Positions 50,016-58,781 of a stretch of DNA of 64,000 nt are shown piece by piece. The notes under the pieces were generated by a model, which worked only from the letters and a program-made list of their open reading frames with translations, searched no databases and was not told the origin of the DNA. A program made the position numbers and the translations under genes. The stretch is from Pseudidiomarina piscicola (GTDB lineage Bacteria > Pseudomonadota > Gammaproteobacteria > Enterobacterales > Alteromonadaceae): NCBI RefSeq assembly GCF_902806985.1, contig NZ_CADCXY010000001.1:372001-436000 (forward strand). Direction: 5' to 3'. The first letter of the stretch is position 1. The number at the start of each line of letters is the position of its first letter.

Positions 50016-50447
50016 TAGCGTCGGCGATTCAGTAGTGCCCCTATTTAACTATGAAGTGCTGTATGGTTGAACCTGTGACCTCTGCCTCCGGAGGGTAGTC
50101 ACCGTTAATGTGGTAAATTGATAATGCCAGGCGTGGTAAGGGCTTAAACGGTGTTGCTGTTTTCGATTTCTAAAAATTATTCGCACTTTTGAGGCCATTT
50201 AACGACAAAATTGGTCACAGAACACTACTCCTAAAACCGACAATTTTTGACCTTTGCCTCAGAACAAAAAATCTCAATCATCGACCTAAAACCTGTGAGT
50301 TTTGAGGTGGAAAAAATTCTATGTTTATCCGTATGCACACTGACGTTTATGCCACACCGAGAATAATCGAATATCTAAATGTTGGGATGTTGTTTTAATC
50401 ATGATGCAGTGGAGTTGCTTTATGTTAACTTACATGGACGTTGCCTA
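50016..50447 (+). other. 432-base gap between rpoS and the rhs gene
   Basis: No credible gene is seen here. The left copy of the tRNA-Arg-derived repeat is at 50066-50098. The remainder is AT-rich with short imperfect repeats (CGACAAAATTGGTCA near 50213 and CGACAATTTTTGACC near 50239). No strong terminator was seen after rpoS. A promoter for rhs is expected here, but I could not settle on one. Confidence 0.6.
50066..50098. repeat. Left direct repeat (attL-like), tRNA-Arg(CCG)-derived
   Basis: Thirty-one of 33 bases are identical to 56164-56196, with a perfect 26-base core at 50069-50094. The core corresponds to the anticodon arm (CTCCGGA loop), variable region and first half of the T arm of a tRNA-Arg(CCG) read on the minus strand. 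The rest of the tRNA is missing on both sides. Confidence 0.85.
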
Positions 50448-53400
50448 ATGAAACTAGCGATTCGAAGCCTTATAGCCTTCAGTATTTTGGTCACTCCTTT
50501 CACATTACATGCGCAGGCTTCTCAGGAAATTTGTTGGACCACATATACAGAGGTATCGAGGCCGAACGGAACACTCCCAGATGGCACGCCAAGGTACGAA
50601 ACTGTTCTTGTTGCAGGACAAGCATGTTATGACATGGCAAATCTTGATGGCGGATGGCCGGGTATAGGCGGCGACCAGGATTATCAGCTCGGTGGTGGTG
50701 GCGGTTCGGGGGCAGGTGCAGGTGATACGCCATCTTCAGAAAACCAAGATGAACGTGACGAACAATGTACGGCGGGAAATCCTATCGTAGTCGCGACGGG
50801 AGAGAAAACGCAGCATGAAGTTGACTTTGCAAATCCGGTGAATAGCTTGCTTTCAATCGAAAGAGGTTATCGTAGCTTCCGTGATGCCACATCTTTATTT
50901 GGAGCTGCATGGCGAAGTAACTTTGATTATGGTGTTACTGTGATTAATCACCCAGACTTCGATGAAATAGTCCTTCAGCGCGGTATCAATGGTTCACTCA
51001 GTTTGGTGCGCGCTACAACGGACGATGGCGATACCGTGTTCGTGAAAATGGGGACGCAACGAATCGAGCGATTGATTGAAAGCCCTGCAGGCTGGACCTA
51101 TTTTGCGGCTAATGGACAAGTTGAGAACTACGACGCCAATGGATTAATTCTTTCGATCGACAATGTAACCACGAATGAGACGATCGTATTTGTCTATGAA
51201 ACGATAGGTGGTGTGCAGCGTTTGACACGAGTGAATGGTAACAAAGGTGGTTCACTCAAGTTTCAATATGTGGGCGGTCGGATCAATTCCATCACTGACA
51301 ACAATGGTGGCGTCTACTTCTACAGCTACAGTTATACCTATGATGGCTACGTGCTCAGCGGAGTTAATTTCCCGGGAAATGATAGCAAGACCTATCATTA
51401 CGGCAGTGGACGTCTGCTTACGGGCATTTCCATGAACGGCACGCGCTTTGCGACGTGGGCCTATGATAGTCAGGGACGCGCGGTCTCAAGCTCACATGGC
51501 AATGGTGTTGATCAAGTTCTTTTGGATTACTCCAGCGTTGCGGCTGGATACGTAACTGAAACGAATCCCAAAGGTAAACAAACTAAGTTTTGGTTATCCA
51601 GCGATGACCCCACTAAAATTGGTGAAGTTGAAGGGCTTGCCTCATCGAACTGTATCGCCACAAGCAGTCTTTACACATTTGATGACAACGGGTATACCGC
51701 TTCCACAACCGATCCGGCTGGAAATACAACAACGTTTGAGCGGGATTTTGTTGGTAATATCCTTACCGAGGTGCGTGCGGCGGGGCAGGCGCAGGAGAAG
51801 ACGATAACCACGCAGTGGCATGCATTTTACAATAAGCCAACGGTAATAACCGAAGAGACATTACGGCGTAATTTCTCCTACAATAATTCGGGTCAATTAG
51901 TGCAAGAGCAATGGGTAGATTTAGCGACCCAACAGACCCGCACGACAACTTATTCATATACCCGCAACAATGATGGACAATTAATTAAGATAAGCGTTAA
52001 CGGGCCTCAGCCGGGCAGCGCGGATACTATTGACTATCACTATGATAATTTAGGTCGGTTATATCAGGTGAATAATGGGCTTTTCGTCATAGCACAATAT
52101 TCTAACTTTGATGGAATGGGGCAACCCACCTTGATGGTAGACCCAAATGGTATTCAGATTTCGATGAGCTATGATGCCCGAGGTCGTTTGAGTCAGCTGA
52201 CTAAGCATTATCCTTCAGGCGATGTCTCAACCTCGTACACTTATGCAGTTGATGGGCAACTCAAAGAAGTTTTCTCTCCCACAGGGTTGGCGTCCATTTT
52301 AACTTATGACGCTGCTCGGCGTCATGTGAGCACAACGTTGCAAAAAGGCTCGGGAATGCCTGTAAAGCAGCGCTTCAGTTATGACACTGCAAGTAACCTG
52401 ACAGCGACGCGGTACAGCCATATTGAACGGAGGATCATCCAAAACAACAACTGCACTCCGAGTCCCTGTCGCATCGACGACACGGTGGGCGACACCCAGT
52501 ATGAAGAAGTTGAAATCAATAACTTCATTCACACGCAACAGTACGATGAGTTGAACCGTCCCCTTTCAGCACAAACAGGCGCACTGCGGTTAAGCTTTGC
52601 ATACGATGCGCGCGGTAATGTGATAGCGAAGACAGATGGACAGAACCAAACGACTTTGTATGAGTATGATGCGCACAACCGTCTCATCAAAGAAACGGCA
52701 CCGGATGGCAGCACCGTAGAGTTTAGCTACAACGCAAATGGTCATTTGACCGAAGTGACCGATGCAAAAGGCAATATCACTAGCTACACCGTGAACGCCT
52801 TTGGTGATGTGCTTTCGCGTACAAGTCCCGACACCGGCACTACAACGTACGGCTATAATGCAGCGGGACAGTTAACACTAGTGAGCCGTGCGAACGGGAC
52901 AAGTACCACACTCAGTTACGATGGTATCGGGCGTGTGACGCAACGCAGCTCTGGCGATGTCAACGAAACATTCAGCTACGATAATTGTAGCTATGGCGTG
53001 GGTAAGCTGTGTCATACCACCGACCGCGCGGGCTCAACAGATTATGACTATACCGCAGCAGGTCAACTGGCGAGCGTAACGCGAAGCATCTTGGGTGCGA
53101 GCTACACCACACAGTGGGTATACGATGAAGAAGGACGTGTGGTTGAAATCAGCTATCCATCGGGTATCTTGGTGGACTACGAATATGACGGTATGGTTGT
53201 GAAACAAGGGCGCCCGTCAGCGGTCTATGTGACGATAAACGGCGTCCGTGAGCCGGTCATGACGATGCTCAATCATGAAGCCTTTGGACCGTTGCGTTAC
53301 GGCACCTATGGTAATGACCTGAGCGCGTTTCGGCAGTATACGAGCGGTTATGAGTTAAAATCCTCTTATGTGGGCGGTGGTTGGGCGCCATTGACCACTG

Positions 53401-54647
53401 AATATCAGAATTTTTACTTTCAAGCGCCGTACATCTCGCAAGCTAAGTTGGCGTATAACAGCGCTGGCAACATCGTCAGCATTGAAGATGTGTTAGGCTC
53501 AGAGCTCGATAGTTTTACCTACGATAATCGTTCGCGCTTGACGCAGCGTAAGCGTAATGGCAACTCGCTAGAAGTCTATAATTACGATGCAAATGGCAAT
53601 CGCACACGATTTAACAATGAGTACTACAGAGTCGATGCCGACAGCAACCAATTGACGGGGCACCGTGTCGGTGCCAGTGGTAGCTTTGCATCGATATGGA
53701 GTTATGACAGTGCAGGTAATCAGCTGCAAAAAGAGACCCACACATGGACCTATGGCGGCGACAATCGTGTACGCCGGCTGACCCGCTCGTCAGGGTTTTA
53801 CTACGAAAACTGGTATGACACTAACGGGCAACGGGTCGCCAAGAGCTCAACGACGACCGACTGGCACTTTTTGTATGGCCAAAGCGGCGAACTGCTGAGC
53901 GAAACCAAGAACGGGCCACATGTTAAAAGCTATATTTGGCTTGAAGGCGAGCTGGTTGCGCTTATTTATAATGATGAACTTTATTTTGTCCACAACGACC
54001 ACTTAGGTCGCCCATACAAGGTAACCGATGATGCGAAAGCGGTGGTTTGGGAGGCCGATTTGCAAAGCTTTGACCGCAGTGTTGTGAGCTCTAGCATTGG
54101 TGCCTTGAATATCGGCTTCCCAGGTCAGTACTGGGACAGCGAGAGCGGCACTTGGCAGAACTGGCATCGTGATTACGACCCAAGCACGGGGCGCTATATT
54201 CAGTCGGATCCGATTGGGTTATATGGTGGCTTAAACACTTATGCCTACGTCGATAGCAATCCTTTGCTTTACAGCGACCCAGACGGTCTATCTCGTAAAA
54301 AAATGGTTGGCGTTGTCTGTTTGGGGATGTCAGTTGGAGCGTTTGCTTTTGATGCCGCAGGAGTGCGAACTGCTGCCATGAACGCTTATGAAAACAATCC
54401 TTATGCTCGTGGGGTTGCAATGTTGGGTCAAGCTGTTGACGAACTCGGTTCAGCAGCAAATAGCTGTAACAACCTCGAAAGAAAAGTGGAATTACAGTTA
54501 AAGCAGAGCGAAATGAGGGATTTGTATCAGAAGATGAGTGTCGCTCACGCTGATTGGGCGAAGGCTAATAATTTTGACGCTGCATCTGGCACTCTAGGAG
54601 TTATGCTGGTTGTTGCGGTCGGGACATGTGGAAGCTTGCTAAGATGA
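50448..54647 (+). CDS. Sec-exported RHS/YD-repeat protein with variable C-terminal tip
   Basis: Large RHS protein, 1399 residues from the ATG at 50448. The start is chosen because it opens a signal peptide ending near L-H-A-Q-A. A Gly-rich linker (about 80-95) and a DUF6531-like entry (G-N-P-I-V-V-A-T-G-E-K, near 115) come next. Many YD repeats (Y-D-x-x-G-R/N) form the shell, and the RHS core end is R-Y-I-Q-S-D-P-I-G-L to D-P-D-G-L at about 1277-1281. The last 118 residues (54291-54644) differ from the core and hold two hydrophobic stretches, as a toxin tip would. Polymorphic-toxin function is inferred from the architecture. No T6SS motif (PAAR or VgrG) is present. Confidence 0.9.
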   Translation: MKLAIRSLIAFSILVTPFTLHAQASQEICWTTYTEVSRPNGTLPDGTPRYETVLVAGQACYDMANLDGGWPGIGGDQDYQLGGGGGSGAGAGDTPSSENQDERDEQCTAGNPIVVATGEKTQHEVDFANPVNSLLSIERGYRSFRDATSLFGAAWRSNFDYGVTVINHPDFDEIVLQRGINGSLSLVRATTDDGDTVFVKMGTQRIERLIESPAGWTYFAANGQVENYDANGLILSIDNVTTNETIVFVYETIGGVQRLTRVNGNKGGSLKFQYVGGRINSITDNNGGVYFYSYSYTYDGYVLSGVNFPGNDSKTYHYGSGRLLTGISMNGTRFATWAYDSQGRAVSSSHGNGVDQVLLDYSSVAAGYVTETNPKGKQTKFWLSSDDPTKIGEVEGLASSNCIATSSLYTFDDNGYTASTTDPAGNTTTFERDFVGNILTEVRAAGQAQEKTITTQWHAFYNKPTVITEETLRRNFSYNNSGQLVQEQWVDLATQQTRTTTYSYTRNNDGQLIKISVNGPQPGSADTIDYHYDNLGRLYQVNNGLFVIAQYSNFDGMGQPTLMVDPNGIQISMSYDARGRLSQLTKHYPSGDVSTSYTYAVDGQLKEVFSPTGLASILTYDAARRHVSTTLQKGSGMPVKQRFSYDTASNLTATRYSHIERRIIQNNNCTPSPCRIDDTVGDTQYEEVEINNFIHTQQYDELNRPLSAQTGALRLSFAYDARGNVIAKTDGQNQTTLYEYDAHNRLIKETAPDGSTVEFSYNANGHLTEVTDAKGNITSYTVNAFGDVLSRTSPDTGTTTYGYNAAGQLTLVSRANGTSTTLSYDGIGRVTQRSSGDVNETFSYDNCSYGVGKLCHTTDRAGSTDYDYTAAGQLASVTRSILGASYTTQWVYDEEGRVVEISYPSGILVDYEYDGMVVKQGRPSAVYVTINGVREPVMTMLNHEAFGPLRYGTYGNDLSAFRQYTSGYELKSSYVGGGWAPLTTEYQNFYFQAPYISQAKLAYNSAGNIVSIEDVLGSELDSFTYDNRSRLTQRKRNGNSLEVYNYDANGNRTRFNNEYYRVDADSNQLTGHRVGASGSFASIWSYDSAGNQLQKETHTWTYGGDNRVRRLTRSSGFYYENWYDTNGQRVAKSSTTTDWHFLYGQSGELLSETKNGPHVKSYIWLEGELVALIYNDELYFVHNDHLGRPYKVTDDAKAVVWEADLQSFDRSVVSSSIGALNIGFPGQYWDSESGTWQNWHRDYDPSTGRYIQSDPIGLYGGLNTYAYVDSNPLLYSDPDGLSRKKMVGVVCLGMSVGAFAFDAAGVRTAAMNAYENNPYARGVAMLGQAVDELGSAANSCNNLERKVELQLKQSEMRDLYQKMSVAHADWAKANNFDAASGTLGVMLVVAVGTCGSLLR

Positions 54648-55219
54648 AAAATCCATTGTCGCTATTTGGTACGTTTGTCGTGAGTGTGACCTTTTTTCTC
54701 GTTGCTTCACACTTTCTTTTGAAATATGCGGATGGCGCGCGGTTTTGGCTGCAACAAGAAATGGCGCCGGTAACTGCAGAAAGCGATACAATTTTGCAGG
54801 AAATGCTTGGGACACACTACATAGTTACTTCGGCTTCTAAACTCCATTTTTCGTCCAGTCCATATTATTTCACACCGTTTGATGCAGTTTATACCTGGCG
54901 AATAATGACCGAAACTACGAGTTATCAAGCTTGCGCGCCGAGGTCGAGTTCATGTGTTCCCTTGGTGGTTTTTGATCCATTCACAAATGGTGCCGCAGGG
55001 TTTGAGTTTTCGGCTGAAATGATGAAACAAGGCTACCCGAATGGAAATGTGTACTATTGTATTGATGGTGAACTGGCGATTGGCGCTGAAGCTATAAAGA
55101 AAGTTGAATTTAGTAATCGGCAGGTAACGATGTTTACGTTCTTAACACCCCGTGGACACTATATGGTTCTCGGCTTGCCCGAAAAACAATTGGAAAAGTG
55201 GAGAGGACGCTGTTCATAG
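54644..55219 (+). CDS. Membrane-anchored protein, candidate immunity protein of the Rhs tip
   Basis: A 191-residue ORF whose ATG overlaps the rhs stop (ATGA), so it is translationally coupled. One N-terminal hydrophobic helix (about 7-27) would anchor it in the inner membrane, with the remainder probably in the periplasm. Four Cys residues in the outer part (C-A-P-R-S-S-S-C, Y-Y-C-I-D and the C-terminal R-G-R-C-S) could form disulfides. I do not recognise the family. Immunity is suggested only by its place behind a toxin tip and by a location matching an exported effector. Confidence 0.75.
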   Translation: MKNPLSLFGTFVVSVTFFLVASHFLLKYADGARFWLQQEMAPVTAESDTILQEMLGTHYIVTSASKLHFSSSPYYFTPFDAVYTWRIMTETTSYQACAPRSSSCVPLVVFDPFTNGAAGFEFSAEMMKQGYPNGNVYYCIDGELAIGAEAIKKVEFSNRQVTMFTFLTPRGHYMVLGLPEKQLEKWRGRCS

Positions 55220-55242
55220 CACTTAAATACACAGGAACTAAG

Positions 55243-55310
55243 TTTTGCTCGAAGGCGAGTTGGTTACGCTTGTTTACGCAGGAGGTTTTCAGTGGTCATG
55301 GGTGTTATAA
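55243..55310 (+). pseudogene. Remnant of a second rhs gene (core fragment)
   Basis: Bases 55248-55280 encode L-E-G-E-L-V-T-L-V-Y-A, close in DNA and protein to L-E-G-E-L-V-A-L-I-Y-N of the intact rhs gene at 53940-53972. Similarity is lost soon after, and the frame ends at a stop at 55308-55310. It is an orphan piece of an older rhs core, as left when rhs tips are exchanged. Confidence 0.7.
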
Positions 55311-55378
55311 GTGCGGGAGCTGGTGGATTTCAATTGGGAGCGCTAGGTTACTGTAATGTAACCTGCGCAATGAAATAA
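55298..55378 (+). CDS. Small ORF, probable displaced end of an Rhs tip
   Basis: A 26-codon ORF (M-G-V-I-S-A-G-A-G-G-F-Q-L-G-A-L-G-Y to C-A-M-K) follows GGAGGTTTTCAGTGGTC, so it has a usable ribosome binding site. It starts within the rhs remnant in another frame and ends by overlapping the next start codon (TAATG). It may be the C-terminal end of a lost toxin tip after a frameshift, or a leader peptide that couples translation to the next gene. No family was recognised. Confidence 0.45.
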   Translation: MGVISAGAGGFQLGALGYCNVTCAMK

Positions 55379-55599
55379 TGAGTTTAATCATACGTGTTCT
55401 TGGAATTGCTGTTGGTCTGGTTATGCTTCTGATGGGAGGCTGGCTTATTTATAAGCCAGTTTTCGGTAATATGCTTGAAAGCCTCAATGCAGTCGTTTTT
55501 ATTTTACTGGGCTTTTTATTTATTACGGTATTACCGGAAGAGGTAATTTATTTCGAAAGTAATACGGGTAACTATAAACCGGTGGTAGTGGATGCTTAA
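55378..55599 (+). CDS. Small two-helix membrane protein, candidate orphan immunity protein
   Basis: A 73-residue ORF with two hydrophobic helices (about 3-24 and 36-54) joined by a short loop and followed by a polar tail. Its ATG overlaps the stop of the upstream 26-codon ORF, the same coupling as seen for rhs and its neighbour at 54644. It may be an immunity gene kept after its toxin was displaced. The family is unknown. Confidence 0.65.
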   Translation: MSLIIRVLGIAVGLVMLLMGGWLIYKPVFGNMLESLNAVVFILLGFLFITVLPEEVIYFESNTGNYKPVVVDA

Positions 55600-55638
55600 T
55601 TGCGACAGAGTTATCGATAATAAGCTGGGGGGCTAAGT

Positions 55639-56115
55639 ATGAAAATCGCGATTGTTGCCATCCTAGTGGCTGTTGTATCCGTTATTGGGTTCCCATATAT
55701 CTATCGATTACTTGACCTGTATACGGCAGATCACGAGAAGTTTCTGCCAATTGCTCAAGCCAACCTCACTGAAGATTTATATAAACTTGATTTTTCACCC
55801 CCGCGCTCGGGGTATTTCGAAGTCGGATTGCTATCCAATGATGGGGTTTCGGTCGAAAATTTGCAGGCGCTATCGATGACTGGTCATTTAAAAATAGAGC
55901 GTGGTCTAGATGTATTATGGGAGATGGATATAGATAAACCTCTTCATTTTCGGTCTCCTAATCATCCTGAAATAGTTAACAAGGCAATTCTATTTCAGTT
56001 TCCCGTTAACACGCTGATCAATAGTACACCGTTAAAGATAAGCTATCAGCCTGAAAGTGACGAACCTAACTCAAAGTTTCCTATAATTTATGTTTCGATT
56101 AGCGCAGCGTACTAA
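55639..56115 (+). CDS. Membrane-anchored protein of unknown function
   Basis: A 158-residue ORF with GGGGGGC a few bases before the ATG. The N-terminal hydrophobic segment (about 2-20) is a signal anchor or uncleaved signal. The remainder seems to be a beta-rich periplasmic domain (Y-F-E-V-G-L-L-S, G-H-L-K-I-E-R-G, P-I-I-Y-V-S-I-S) without Cys. I do not recognise it. Lying last in the rhs block, it could be another immunity or accessory protein; this is inference. Confidence 0.65.
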   Translation: MKIAIVAILVAVVSVIGFPYIYRLLDLYTADHEKFLPIAQANLTEDLYKLDFSPPRSGYFEVGLLSNDGVSVENLQALSMTGHLKIERGLDVLWEMDIDKPLHFRSPNHPEIVNKAILFQFPVNTLINSTPLKISYQPESDEPNSKFPIIYVSISAAY

Positions 56116-56122
56116 GACAAGA

Positions 56123-56156
56123 GGGTGCGCTACAGGCCAGTAAAAATGGCGCACCC
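56123..56156 (-). terminator. Possible terminator downstream of mutS
   Basis: GGGTGCGC and GCGCACCC form an 8-bp stem with an 18-base loop. On the minus strand the hairpin is followed by TCTTGTCTT, a weak T tract. One arm is the acceptor strand of the tRNA-Arg fragment. Confidence 0.35.
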
Positions 56157-56192
56157 GACAGGAGTCGAACCTGTGACCTCTGCCTCCGGAGG
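56147..56192 (-). pseudogene. 3' half of tRNA-Arg(CCG) (tRNA fragment)
   Basis: Read on the minus strand, 46 bases match the 3' half of a tRNA-Arg(CCG): anticodon loop CTCCGGA, GGCAG arm, AGGTC variable region, a full T arm (ACAGG-TTCGACT-CCTGT), acceptor strand CGGGTGC, discriminator G and CCA at 56147-56149. The D arm and 5' acceptor strand are absent; mutS sequence takes their place. It is not a working tRNA gene, and an intact copy must be elsewhere if the tRNA is essential. Confidence 0.8.
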
Positions 56193-56196
56193 CTAG
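56164..56196. repeat. Right direct repeat (attR-like), tRNA-Arg(CCG)-derived
   Basis: This is the partner of 50066-50098 in the same orientation, 31 of 33 bases identical, core 56167-56192. The core ends on the base before the mutS stop codon (56193-56195 on the minus strand). Confidence 0.85.
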
Positions 56197-56201
56197 AGGT
56201 C
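56175..56201. repeat. Palindrome spanning the mutS stop codon
   Basis: GACCTCT-GCCTCCGGAGGC-TAGAGGTC is a 27-base near-perfect inverted repeat centred on CCTCCGGAGG with one unpaired base. On the plus strand it is followed by TTTTATATT, so it could also end transcripts leaving the rhs block. The last two sense codons and stop of mutS lie in its right arm. Confidence 0.75.
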
Positions 56202-58781
56202 TTTTATATTCTCCGTGCGGGGCTGCCAACGGGCTAACCATTGAAGCGCTTCGAGAGGTGTCATTGCCTCAATATTAAGCTTTTTCAAGGCATCGATAGC
56301 TGCTAATGATTCTGAGCAAAGAAATGGCTCGGTTGTCGGTGCGTTGAGCTCACTTTGCGGCTTGTTTATGGCTGGCTTGGTTGGTTGCTCAAGCTGTTCT
56401 AAAATCTGCTTGGCACGCATCAAGACAGGTTTTGGCAAACCTGCGAGTTGTGCAACTTGTACACCGAAACTGCGGTTTGCGGCACCCTCTGTGACGCGGT
56501 GCTCGAACACAATACGCTCTTCGTGCTCACTTGCCTCCACATGTAAGTTTACGCATCCACTTTGTTCACCGATACTCTCGGTTAACTCAAAATAGTGGGT
56601 CGCAAACAAGGTAAGCGCACGGTTATCAGAAAGAAGAGACTCAGCACAAGCCCAGGCTAAAGCTAGACCGTCATAGGTCGATGTTCCACGACCGATTTCA
56701 TCCATTAATACTAGGCTACGATGCGTTGCGTTATGCAGTATAGCCGCTGCTTCTGTCATTTCTACCATAAAAGTAGAGCGGCCAGAGGCAAGATCGTCTG
56801 ACGCACCAATCCGCGTAAAAATCCGATCAATCGGTCCGAATGTTGCTGCAGAAGCGGGAACAAAACTGCCACAGTGAGCCATGATGGTTAACAAAGCGGC
56901 TTGACGCATATAGGTCGACTTACCGCCCATGTTGGGGCCGGTAATAAGCAACATGCGCTCCGCCTCATTAATTACAAGATCATTAGCTATAAAAGGCGCA
57001 TCTAGCTGCTGTTCAATGACAGGGTGACGCGCAGCTTTGAGTGACATTCCAATGCTTTGACTTAACTTGGGGCGACAGTAATTATGGGTGGCTGCTTGAG
57101 CGGCAAAGCCACGTAAAACATCGATTTCTGCTAGCGCTTGCGCAGTGCCTTGAAGCAGGGTAAGACTTTCAGCCACAACGTCTAACAAGGCTTCATAAAG
57201 CCATTTTTCCCTTACTAAAGCTCGAGACTGTGCCTGCAGTACTTTATCTTCGTAGGTTTTTAGCTCAGGGATTATATAACGTTCAGCATTCTTTAAGGTT
57301 TGACGCCGCTGATAATCGGCTGGAATGTGCGCCGAACTTGCCCGACTGGCTTCTAAGTAATAACCATGTACCTTGTTATAACCAATTTTTAAAGTCGAGA
57401 TCCCTGTTCGTTGACGTTCGCGTGTTTCTATCTGCTGCAAAAAGTCTGTTGCTCCCGCTGCAAGCTGGCGTTGTTCATCAAGTTCCTCATCAAAGCCATC
57501 GGCAATGACGCCACCATCACGGATCAGCATTGGCGGTGCATCAACTAAAGCTTGTTCCAGTGTTTTCAACAGTTCAGGGAAGTCGTGCAAACTTTCAAGC
57601 CATGGTTGCAGCTGATCATAACCGGTCAGTGAGGTTCGCAACGTCGGTAAGCTTTGCAGTGCATGGCGTAGCCGCGTTAAATCTCGCGGTCGAGCGCTGC
57701 GCAGGCCAACACGAGAAAGTATACGTTCTAGGTCACCGATATTACGCAACGTTTTATGTAATTCGTCTAGGTCGACAGATTGCAGCACAGAAACAGCTTC
57801 ATATCTCTCGTTGAGCGTGAAGTGATCTCGAATAGGGCGTTGAAGCCAACGGCGGAGTAACCGTCCTCCCATTGCCGTAGCAGTCACATTTAATGTGTCG
57901 AATAATGAGGTTGCTGCACCGCTTAACGAGCTGACGATTTCTAAATTACGTTGACTCGTAGCATCTAGTTGAATAGCTTCGTCACCTTGTTCCGCTCTAA
58001 TACTTTGAATATGTGGCAGCGCTGCGCGTTGGGTTAGCTTTACATAGTTCAAAATAGCCCCAGCGGCACCGATAGCATGACGGTAGCGTGATATGCCAAA
58101 ACCATCAAGATGCTGAACGTGAAGCTGCCGACAAAGTAATGCTTCGCCGCTATCACTTGCAAATTCCCAGTCTGGTCGAGGGCGAATAGAGCCGTTTTGG
58201 TACCACTGCGGCGACCAGCTCATCGTATCGGGATGGAGTAGTTCAGCCGGCTGTAGGCGTTGTAACTCTGCCTGAAGCTGCGTCTCATTCGTGCATTCAA
58301 GAACACTAAAGCGCCCACTGGCCAAATCTAAACACGCGATGCCGAATAATTTGTCGTAGGTGACCGCCACCAACAAGTTTTCTTTGGTTTCTGAAAGTAA
58401 GGCTTCATCAGTAACAGTACCCGGTGTGAGCACGCGCACAACTTGACGTTCAACCGGTCCTTTACTCGTTGCTGGATCGCCTACTTGTTCGCAAATCGCA
58501 ACCGACTCACCCATTTGCAGTAAACGTGCAAGATAATTCTCGGCCGCATGGTACGGCACACCAGCCATTGGAATCGGCTTGCCGTTACTCGCTCCTCTTT
58601 GGGTCAGCGATATACCAAGTAATTCAGCTGCTTTACGGGCATCATCAAAGAAGAGCTCGTAAAAATCCCCCATGCGATAGAATAAAAGCGTATCGGAATG
58701 TTCCGCCTTTATGCGTAGATATTGCTGCATCATCGGTGTATGTGCGGAAAAGTCTGCGGTGGCTGTTGTCGCTTTCGGCAT
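56193..58781 (-). CDS. mutS: DNA mismatch repair protein MutS
   Basis: Mismatch-recognition ATPase of 862 residues. The N-terminal domain holds the mismatch-contacting F-Y-E-L-F motif ([10 protein letters not shown], near residue 40). The ATPase domain has Walker [26 protein letters not shown] and T-H-Y-F. The C-terminal tetramerisation segment [10 protein letters not shown] is intact, but the final residues and stop codon run into the tRNA-derived repeat. It is divergent from pncC. Confidence 0.97.

Follow-up and report, generated by a model that had tools for sequence, protein, structure and literature searches.

Integrase-less Rhs island between rpoS and mutS of Pseudidiomarina piscicola, a probable trans-mobilised member of a tRNA-Arg(CCG) island family

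How could an accessory block with tRNA-derived ends and no integrase of its own have reached the interval between rpoS and mutS? This question is raised by a 6.1-kb block in the genome of Pseudidiomarina piscicola, within a 64,000-nt stretch of contig NZ_CADCXY010000001.1 (positions 372,001 to 436,000) which was analysed as a whole and is referred to here as the window. The initial annotation, made from the letters of the window, described 33-bp direct repeats with a 26-bp core around the block, and these were confirmed at the coordinates claimed: the copies at 50066-50098 and 56164-56196 are identical at 31 of 33 positions (94%), are spaced 6098 bp apart and share a perfect 26-bp core at 50069-50094 and 56167-56192. 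By an arithmetic estimate, the chance expectation of a 26-bp perfect repeat in 64 kb is about 5e-7, so that such a repeat is not expected.

The derivation of the repeat from the 3' half of a tRNA-Arg stands for the right copy, while the left copy represents only a part of that half. The right end of the island (56147-56192) is identical at 46 of 46 positions, the complement of CCA included, to the 3' half of the genome's own tRNA-Arg(CCG) (G000:C2:230781-230857). The left copy matches the same gene at 28 of 29 positions, from the T-loop to the anticodon loop only. The tRNA gene itself is located on contig C2, elsewhere than the island. ARAGORN detected no tRNA gene within the insert. In an Rfam search of 44-62 kb nothing reached the gathering score, and the one sub-threshold match lies outside the island. 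The left copy is preceded by rpoS 3'-flanking DNA, with 50 bp from the rpoS stop to the repeat. The host site at rpoS-mutS is not a tRNA gene: an intact tRNA at one end with a displaced fragment at the other is found in the sister units at tRNA-Arg and not in the window island.

The accessory rhs block is enclosed by the repeats as had been described, with a 1422-aa rhs ORF, three smaller ORFs and an rhs remnant all lying between the two copies (Table 1). Within the rhs ORF, an in-frame ATG at 50448 is followed by a stretch which by eye resembles a signal peptide. The cargo consists of an Rhs protein and candidate partner ORFs, one of them the 197-aa ORF, whose homologues in G003 and G004 stop 73-74 bp short of the core at tRNA-Arg. 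That no integrase lies inside was borne out by a PF00589 search of the interval, which gave no match, and by a Pfam scan of the island ORFs, which found no integrase family. Likewise, no transfer gene was matched among the four island ORFs scanned, and no transposase or integrase family by the five non-mutS proteins scanned in and beside the island. The island has the core at both ends and, as far as these four ORFs go, neither integration nor transfer genes, which is how a CIME is recognised.

Table 1. Coordinates of the island and its borders in the window
Feature	Position	Strand	Basis or remark
Left core copy, T-loop to anticodon loop of tRNA-Arg(CCG)	50066..50094	+	28/29
Presumed 7-bp crossover TCCGGAG	50087-50093	+	Placed from short-match ends
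Type-A left arm, conserved	50095..50320	+	14 copies aligned over 269 columns, mean column identity 88%; 31 distinct copies among fetched loci
Inner core-like site GACCTTTGCC-TCAGAAC	50249..50265	+	Degenerate here; TCGCGAC in most aligned copies
Rhs ORF, 1422 aa	50379..54647	+	Pfam RHS_repeat, DUF6531; RHS just below cut-off
197-aa ORF, candidate Rhs partner	54626..55219	+	Without Pfam match
rhs remnant	55238..55276	+	82% like 53930-53968
73-aa ORF	55378..55599	+	Without Pfam match
158-aa ORF	55639..56115	+	Without Pfam match; homologues in G003, G005, G012
Right arm adjoining tRNA half	56114..56146	+	Common to other units; matches ~56114 to 56192 in several loci
tRNA-Arg(CCG) 3' half with CCA, including right core copy 56164-56192	56147..56192	-	46/46 to own tRNA gene
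Host flank CTAGAGGTCT with mutS stop codon	56193..56202	.	By-eye reading; mutS from ORF list

The common gene order on both sides of the island (nlpD-rpoS and mutS-pncC-recA) was upheld, with the identity of rpoS and mutS confirmed by Pfam (MutS domains I-V were all matched) and the neighbours recognised from their ORF translations as what we take to be nlpD, pncC and recA. A match to this region is present in 37 of 40 genomes, and in all 19 relatives for which the locus was returned rpoS and mutS are convergent and uninterrupted by an insert, the distance between their stops being -32 to +42 bp. The core is also absent from the rpoS-mutS gaps of these 19 relatives, so the empty site with a single repeat which the initial annotation predicted was not found. 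A bare core at rpoS-mutS as the state before insertion was considered as well and set aside, as none was recognised by eye in the locus rows, where L022 has only an arm stub. Removal of the repeats from the window flanks would leave 50 bp. The reading of the block as an integrated island is nevertheless supported by its absence from all 19 relatives and by ends that are typical of islands stacked at a real tRNA-Arg(CCG).

The right border of the island directly adjoins the mutS stop codon, all of which is host DNA. The host flank GCTAGAGGTC, which includes the G before 56193 and reads GACCTCTAGC backwards, agrees by our own reading with the half-core GACCTCTGCC at 8 of 10 positions, in inverse orientation. 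The last residues of MutS vary among the relatives, and the island adjoins this variable end (window 56193-56230).

Judged from its sequence, the island is one of a family of tRNA-Arg islands, most of them integrase-less, which occurs mainly in Idiomarina and Pseudidiomarina. Its left end continues into an arm of about 255 bp which is common to the islands stacked at tRNA-Arg(CCG) in these genera and which occurs at 30 places (at least 79 bp aligned) in 15 of the 26 genomes of the genus. Most copies of the arm lie in head-to-tail units beside tRNA-Arg(CCG), each in the order core, left arm, cargo, right arm, tRNA 3' half, core; the array of G014 has nine cores between 2,197,916 and 2,279,397 and gave no PF00589 match. 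A 25-bp core pattern with up to 3 mismatches was found at 66 places in 24 of the 26 genomes, with 0 for the reversed control, and the core is also common to other left-arm types.

The composition of the units was assessed in 28 core-to-core intervals that were picked by hand, the window included and ends broken by contigs dropped. Arm types were read from alignments, the automatic arm label having failed for type A, and integrase hits were assigned to units by reading coordinates in all 26 genomes. The units are 1.9-45 kb long. PF00589 is unmatched in 26 of the 28; a type-A arm is present in 18, and 17 of these 18 are without an integrase match. Homologues of toxin-antitoxin or abortive-infection proteins (nine queries) are found in 17 of the 28 units and Rhs homologues in seven; the window unit has Rhs and was matched by none of the nine queries.

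The left arm was found in only one of 295 genomes drawn from the order (E 1e-20), namely the own genome, and a GTDB scan returned 28 loci, 22 of them in Idiomarina or Pseudidiomarina. The other six are in a gammaproteobacterial MAG (1), Aliidiomarina (1) and, together, Arsukibacterium, Alteromonas, Rheinheimera and a Kangiellaceae MAG (4). Phages and plasmids were rejected as a source: 4 phage and 43 plasmid records matched the left arm and 46 plasmid records the whole island, none of them covering 80%, and among the left-arm matches listed the coverage was 16-18%, at the tRNA part of the arm. IMG/VR gave no match to the left-arm pattern or the integrase patterns. Of the titles that literature searches listed, none dealt with islands of this kind in Idiomarina or Pseudidiomarina, which does not show that no such work exists.

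As the family is mostly without a moving enzyme, it probably borrows one. The two units that hold a PF00589 match are G018_E1 (45 kb) and G006_E1 (39 kb, with a B-like left arm), and their integrases of about 398 aa are 73% identical; that of G018 (L037:11493-12689) has arm-binding and catalytic domains and is 92% identical to an integrase of G011. This candidate integrase family was found in four genomes only, the fourth being G022 with a 55% relative on a different contig from its tRNA. The initial annotation had suggested a search for a tyrosine recombinase next to another copy of the core, and one does lie close to the tRNA-Arg core of G018 and G011, at 1.7-3.1 kb, and at a greater distance of about 14 kb in G006. 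The own genome has a short XerD-like ORF some 6 kb away from its third core copy, but this ORF is not of the candidate family.

No clean autonomous parent with a type-A arm was found among the 28 units, because the two integrase-holding units are long and possibly composite. G018_E1, which is bounded by the core and a type-A arm and holds an integrase, was set aside as such a parent because it may be a composite: one part of it matches, at 98.6% identity, a metal-efflux stretch of a separate G007 unit. The integrase unit of G011 has no core between its tRNA and the contig start. Integrases of the own genome were rejected as the mover: of its six PF00589 matches, two are presumed XerC/XerD proteins and the four others are not close to the candidate integrase, and a search with the candidate family gave only weak matches in this genome. 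As to a phage source, phage integrases are below 60% identity to the candidate in 1084 of 1084 records, with 31% in the ten matches listed. As its genome lacks a close relative of the candidate integrases, the window copy is probably immobile until a helper integrase enters. Larger tyrosine-recombinase-like proteins were also seen, namely two neighbours in G018 (L044:1894-7058), 751 and 970 aa long, of which only the second passes the Pfam cut-off, and one of 974 aa in G011 (L046:5114-8038) that is 92.5% identical to the 970-aa protein.

The point of exchange can be approached through the shortest ends. Three left ends in foreign DNA (L031, L126, L071) have little beyond the half-core and an overlap in common with the tRNA. 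From these short ends, and from the inverted half-cores that surround the anticodon loop, the putative crossover is placed in TCCGGAG, within that loop. A tyrosine integrase supplied in trans would recombine two cores within these 7 bp to release a circle, which would re-integrate at tRNA-Arg and restore its 3' half or, more rarely, enter a site that resembles one half-core. For the window unit, the point of entry would be a secondary site of this kind, in contact with the mutS stop codon. Six left ends lack the tRNA 3' end (window 50066-50094, L022 8686, L087 10267, L077 12950, L032 8782, L033 3376), yet their tRNA match extends 18-22 bp past the presumed crossover, to about the T-loop; such extra tRNA sequence would not result if a plain circle had entered a non-tRNA site. 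It could be explained by a piece of an array cut with a core at each end, or by loss of the first unit after tandem integration. A hairpin flank, considered as a possible cause of the border at the T-loop, is present in L022 and L087. About 160 bp inside the left arm lies an inner core-like site (TCGCGAC), at which, and not at the outer core, some unit borders fall (L027 11897, L087 13933, L083 4617).

Evidence on how the units travel comes from those shared between species. A type-B unit of 7,690 bp with an AcrB-type efflux gene and no integrase is present whole in G012, G014 and G040 (94.2-98.4%), beside the tRNA in G040 and within arrays in the other two, and a 5.7-kb integrase-less type-A unit is 99.2% identical over 98% between G010 and G015. 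By comparison, the DNA identity of rpoS-mutS is 72.0% for G012-G014 and 70.9% for G010-G015 (G040 was not compared). That whole integrase-less units recur across species with 71-72% identity at rpoS-mutS suggests that the family normally moves in trans. Such recurrence at different places or in different species is true of the sister units, while the window unit is shared in part, with 33-47% covered: it matches G014_E2 at 90.1% over 696 bp and at 94.8% over 1.3 kb of rhs (rpoS-mutS 71.2%), and G003 has rhs modules related to it (94.1%, 47% of the island), located in a unit whose end is at tRNA-Arg and whose left arm is of a different type. The Rhs gene is 94-96% identical over part of its length in the tRNA-Arg islands of G014 and G003, and is interrupted in G014.

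Taken together, we consider it reasonably probable that the block is a non-autonomous, integrase-less island of the tRNA-Arg(CCG)-specific Idiomarina/Pseudidiomarina family which was mobilised in trans and now occupies a secondary site. The best explanation is a CIME-like island that left its tRNA-Arg site for one abutting the mutS stop. The earlier alternative of an element mobilised in trans or a remnant is thereby supported as a reading, with the trans movement itself being what we infer. Should the island instead be a fossil CIME, an ordinary integrase-bearing island would have integrated, lost its integrase and become fixed, with no movement in trans. The lack of an integrase in the island and of a close family member in its genome, the degenerate inner site of this copy and the rhs remnant at 55238 all fit such a history; it is nevertheless unlikely, as the absence of an integrase is the rule of the family (26 of 28 units) and as decay after insertion does not predict whole integrase-less units that recur in distant species.

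A weaker case can be made for natural transformation followed by homologous recombination at common cores or cargo, with no site-specific enzyme involved. The units are mosaics with arms and cargo blocks in common, and rhs tips are found without island ends: contig C7 of G012 has a related rhs C-terminal (tip) region (88-98%), and neither core nor arm was matched in the 16 kb retrieved there. Rhs tips therefore move also without the island, and the case of rhs genes without repeats in relatives, which the initial annotation counted against its reading, is seen to this extent. Unit borders, however, fall on the core, and no homology is on offer at the rpoS-mutS interval of the relatives, which makes this route decidedly improbable. 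Rhs genes are often accessory, which would suit an independent rhs locus with repeats there by chance or left by a transposon. This reading, which could also draw on the mosaic mutS-rpoS region of E. coli (PMC4209514), is hardly credible, being already contradicted by an arm and a tRNA half common to a whole family and by the five scanned proteins without a transposase or integrase match.

The trans-mobilised island has counterparts in known systems. CIMEs, as PMC5704250 describes them, keep their att sites, have no integration or transfer genes and accrete in tandem at one target. The island family is like them in its att sites without integration genes and its tandem accretion. CIMEs are, however, described in the same text as decayed ICEs or IMEs, while whole integrase-less units recur between distant species here; in contrast to tandem accretion, the window unit is alone and off the tRNA. 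The ssrA islands of Dehalococcoides (PMC3146451) are likewise in tandem, split by repeats of the RNA gene's 3' end, and fifteen are without an integration module. They target tmRNA with a serine recombinase, whereas the family here uses tRNA-Arg(CCG) and an anticodon-loop core, and an integration module is present in sixteen of them, compared with an integrase match in 2 of 28 units. On sequence grounds, the recurrence of whole integrase-less units between distant species and the position of the window unit, alone and off the tRNA, appear to go beyond both CIMEs and ssrA islands. CALINs, arrays of integron cassettes without an integrase that depend on one in trans (PMC11389934), would resemble the units in this dependence; they use attC, while the sites here are tRNA-derived halves with arms and the units are 1.9-45 kb long. 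Salmonella genomic island 1 has a secondary chromosomal attachment site, integrates in tandem and is mobilizable, according to PMC2297512. There it is called an IME, and IMEs encode their own integration (PMC5704250), whereas the window unit is integrase-less.

More tentatively, Idiomarina and Pseudidiomarina may possess a tRNA-based, integron-like cassette system in which a shared integrase, acting in trans, loads units at tRNA-Arg(CCG), stacks them and shuffles them, with some leaking to sites like rpoS-mutS; we hold this to be possible, with the balance somewhat against it. The units of such a system would be mostly integrase-less, with a left arm of about 255 bp (an outer and an inner recombination site) and a tRNA-half right end, and many would have a toxin-antitoxin or abortive-infection module. 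Islands that have no integrase tend to be dismissed as dead, and here movement in trans is suggested as the normal mode of a family. If this is so, a large share of the accessory genes in these marine bacteria would be spread as cassettes by a borrowed enzyme, with metal efflux, toxin-antitoxin, restriction and Rhs among the cargo. The copy at rpoS-mutS shows that the family is able to leave its tRNA.

Some further copies were observed in passing. The third core copy of the own genome (L022:2104-8714, G000:C2) has a left-arm stub, and its neighbours are rhs fragments, IS-like ORFs and the short XerD-like recombinase. At the own tRNA-Arg site (L021, G000), sequence like a type-B unit is present with AbiE-like and Fic-like ORFs (by eye) and no type-A arm. 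Near-identical copies of the left arm (98-99.9%) occur in Arsukibacterium, a Kangiellaceae MAG, Alteromonas and Rheinheimera (L109, L111, L115, L127), and in L115 a transposase-like ORF, by eye of Tn3 type, adjoins the copy.
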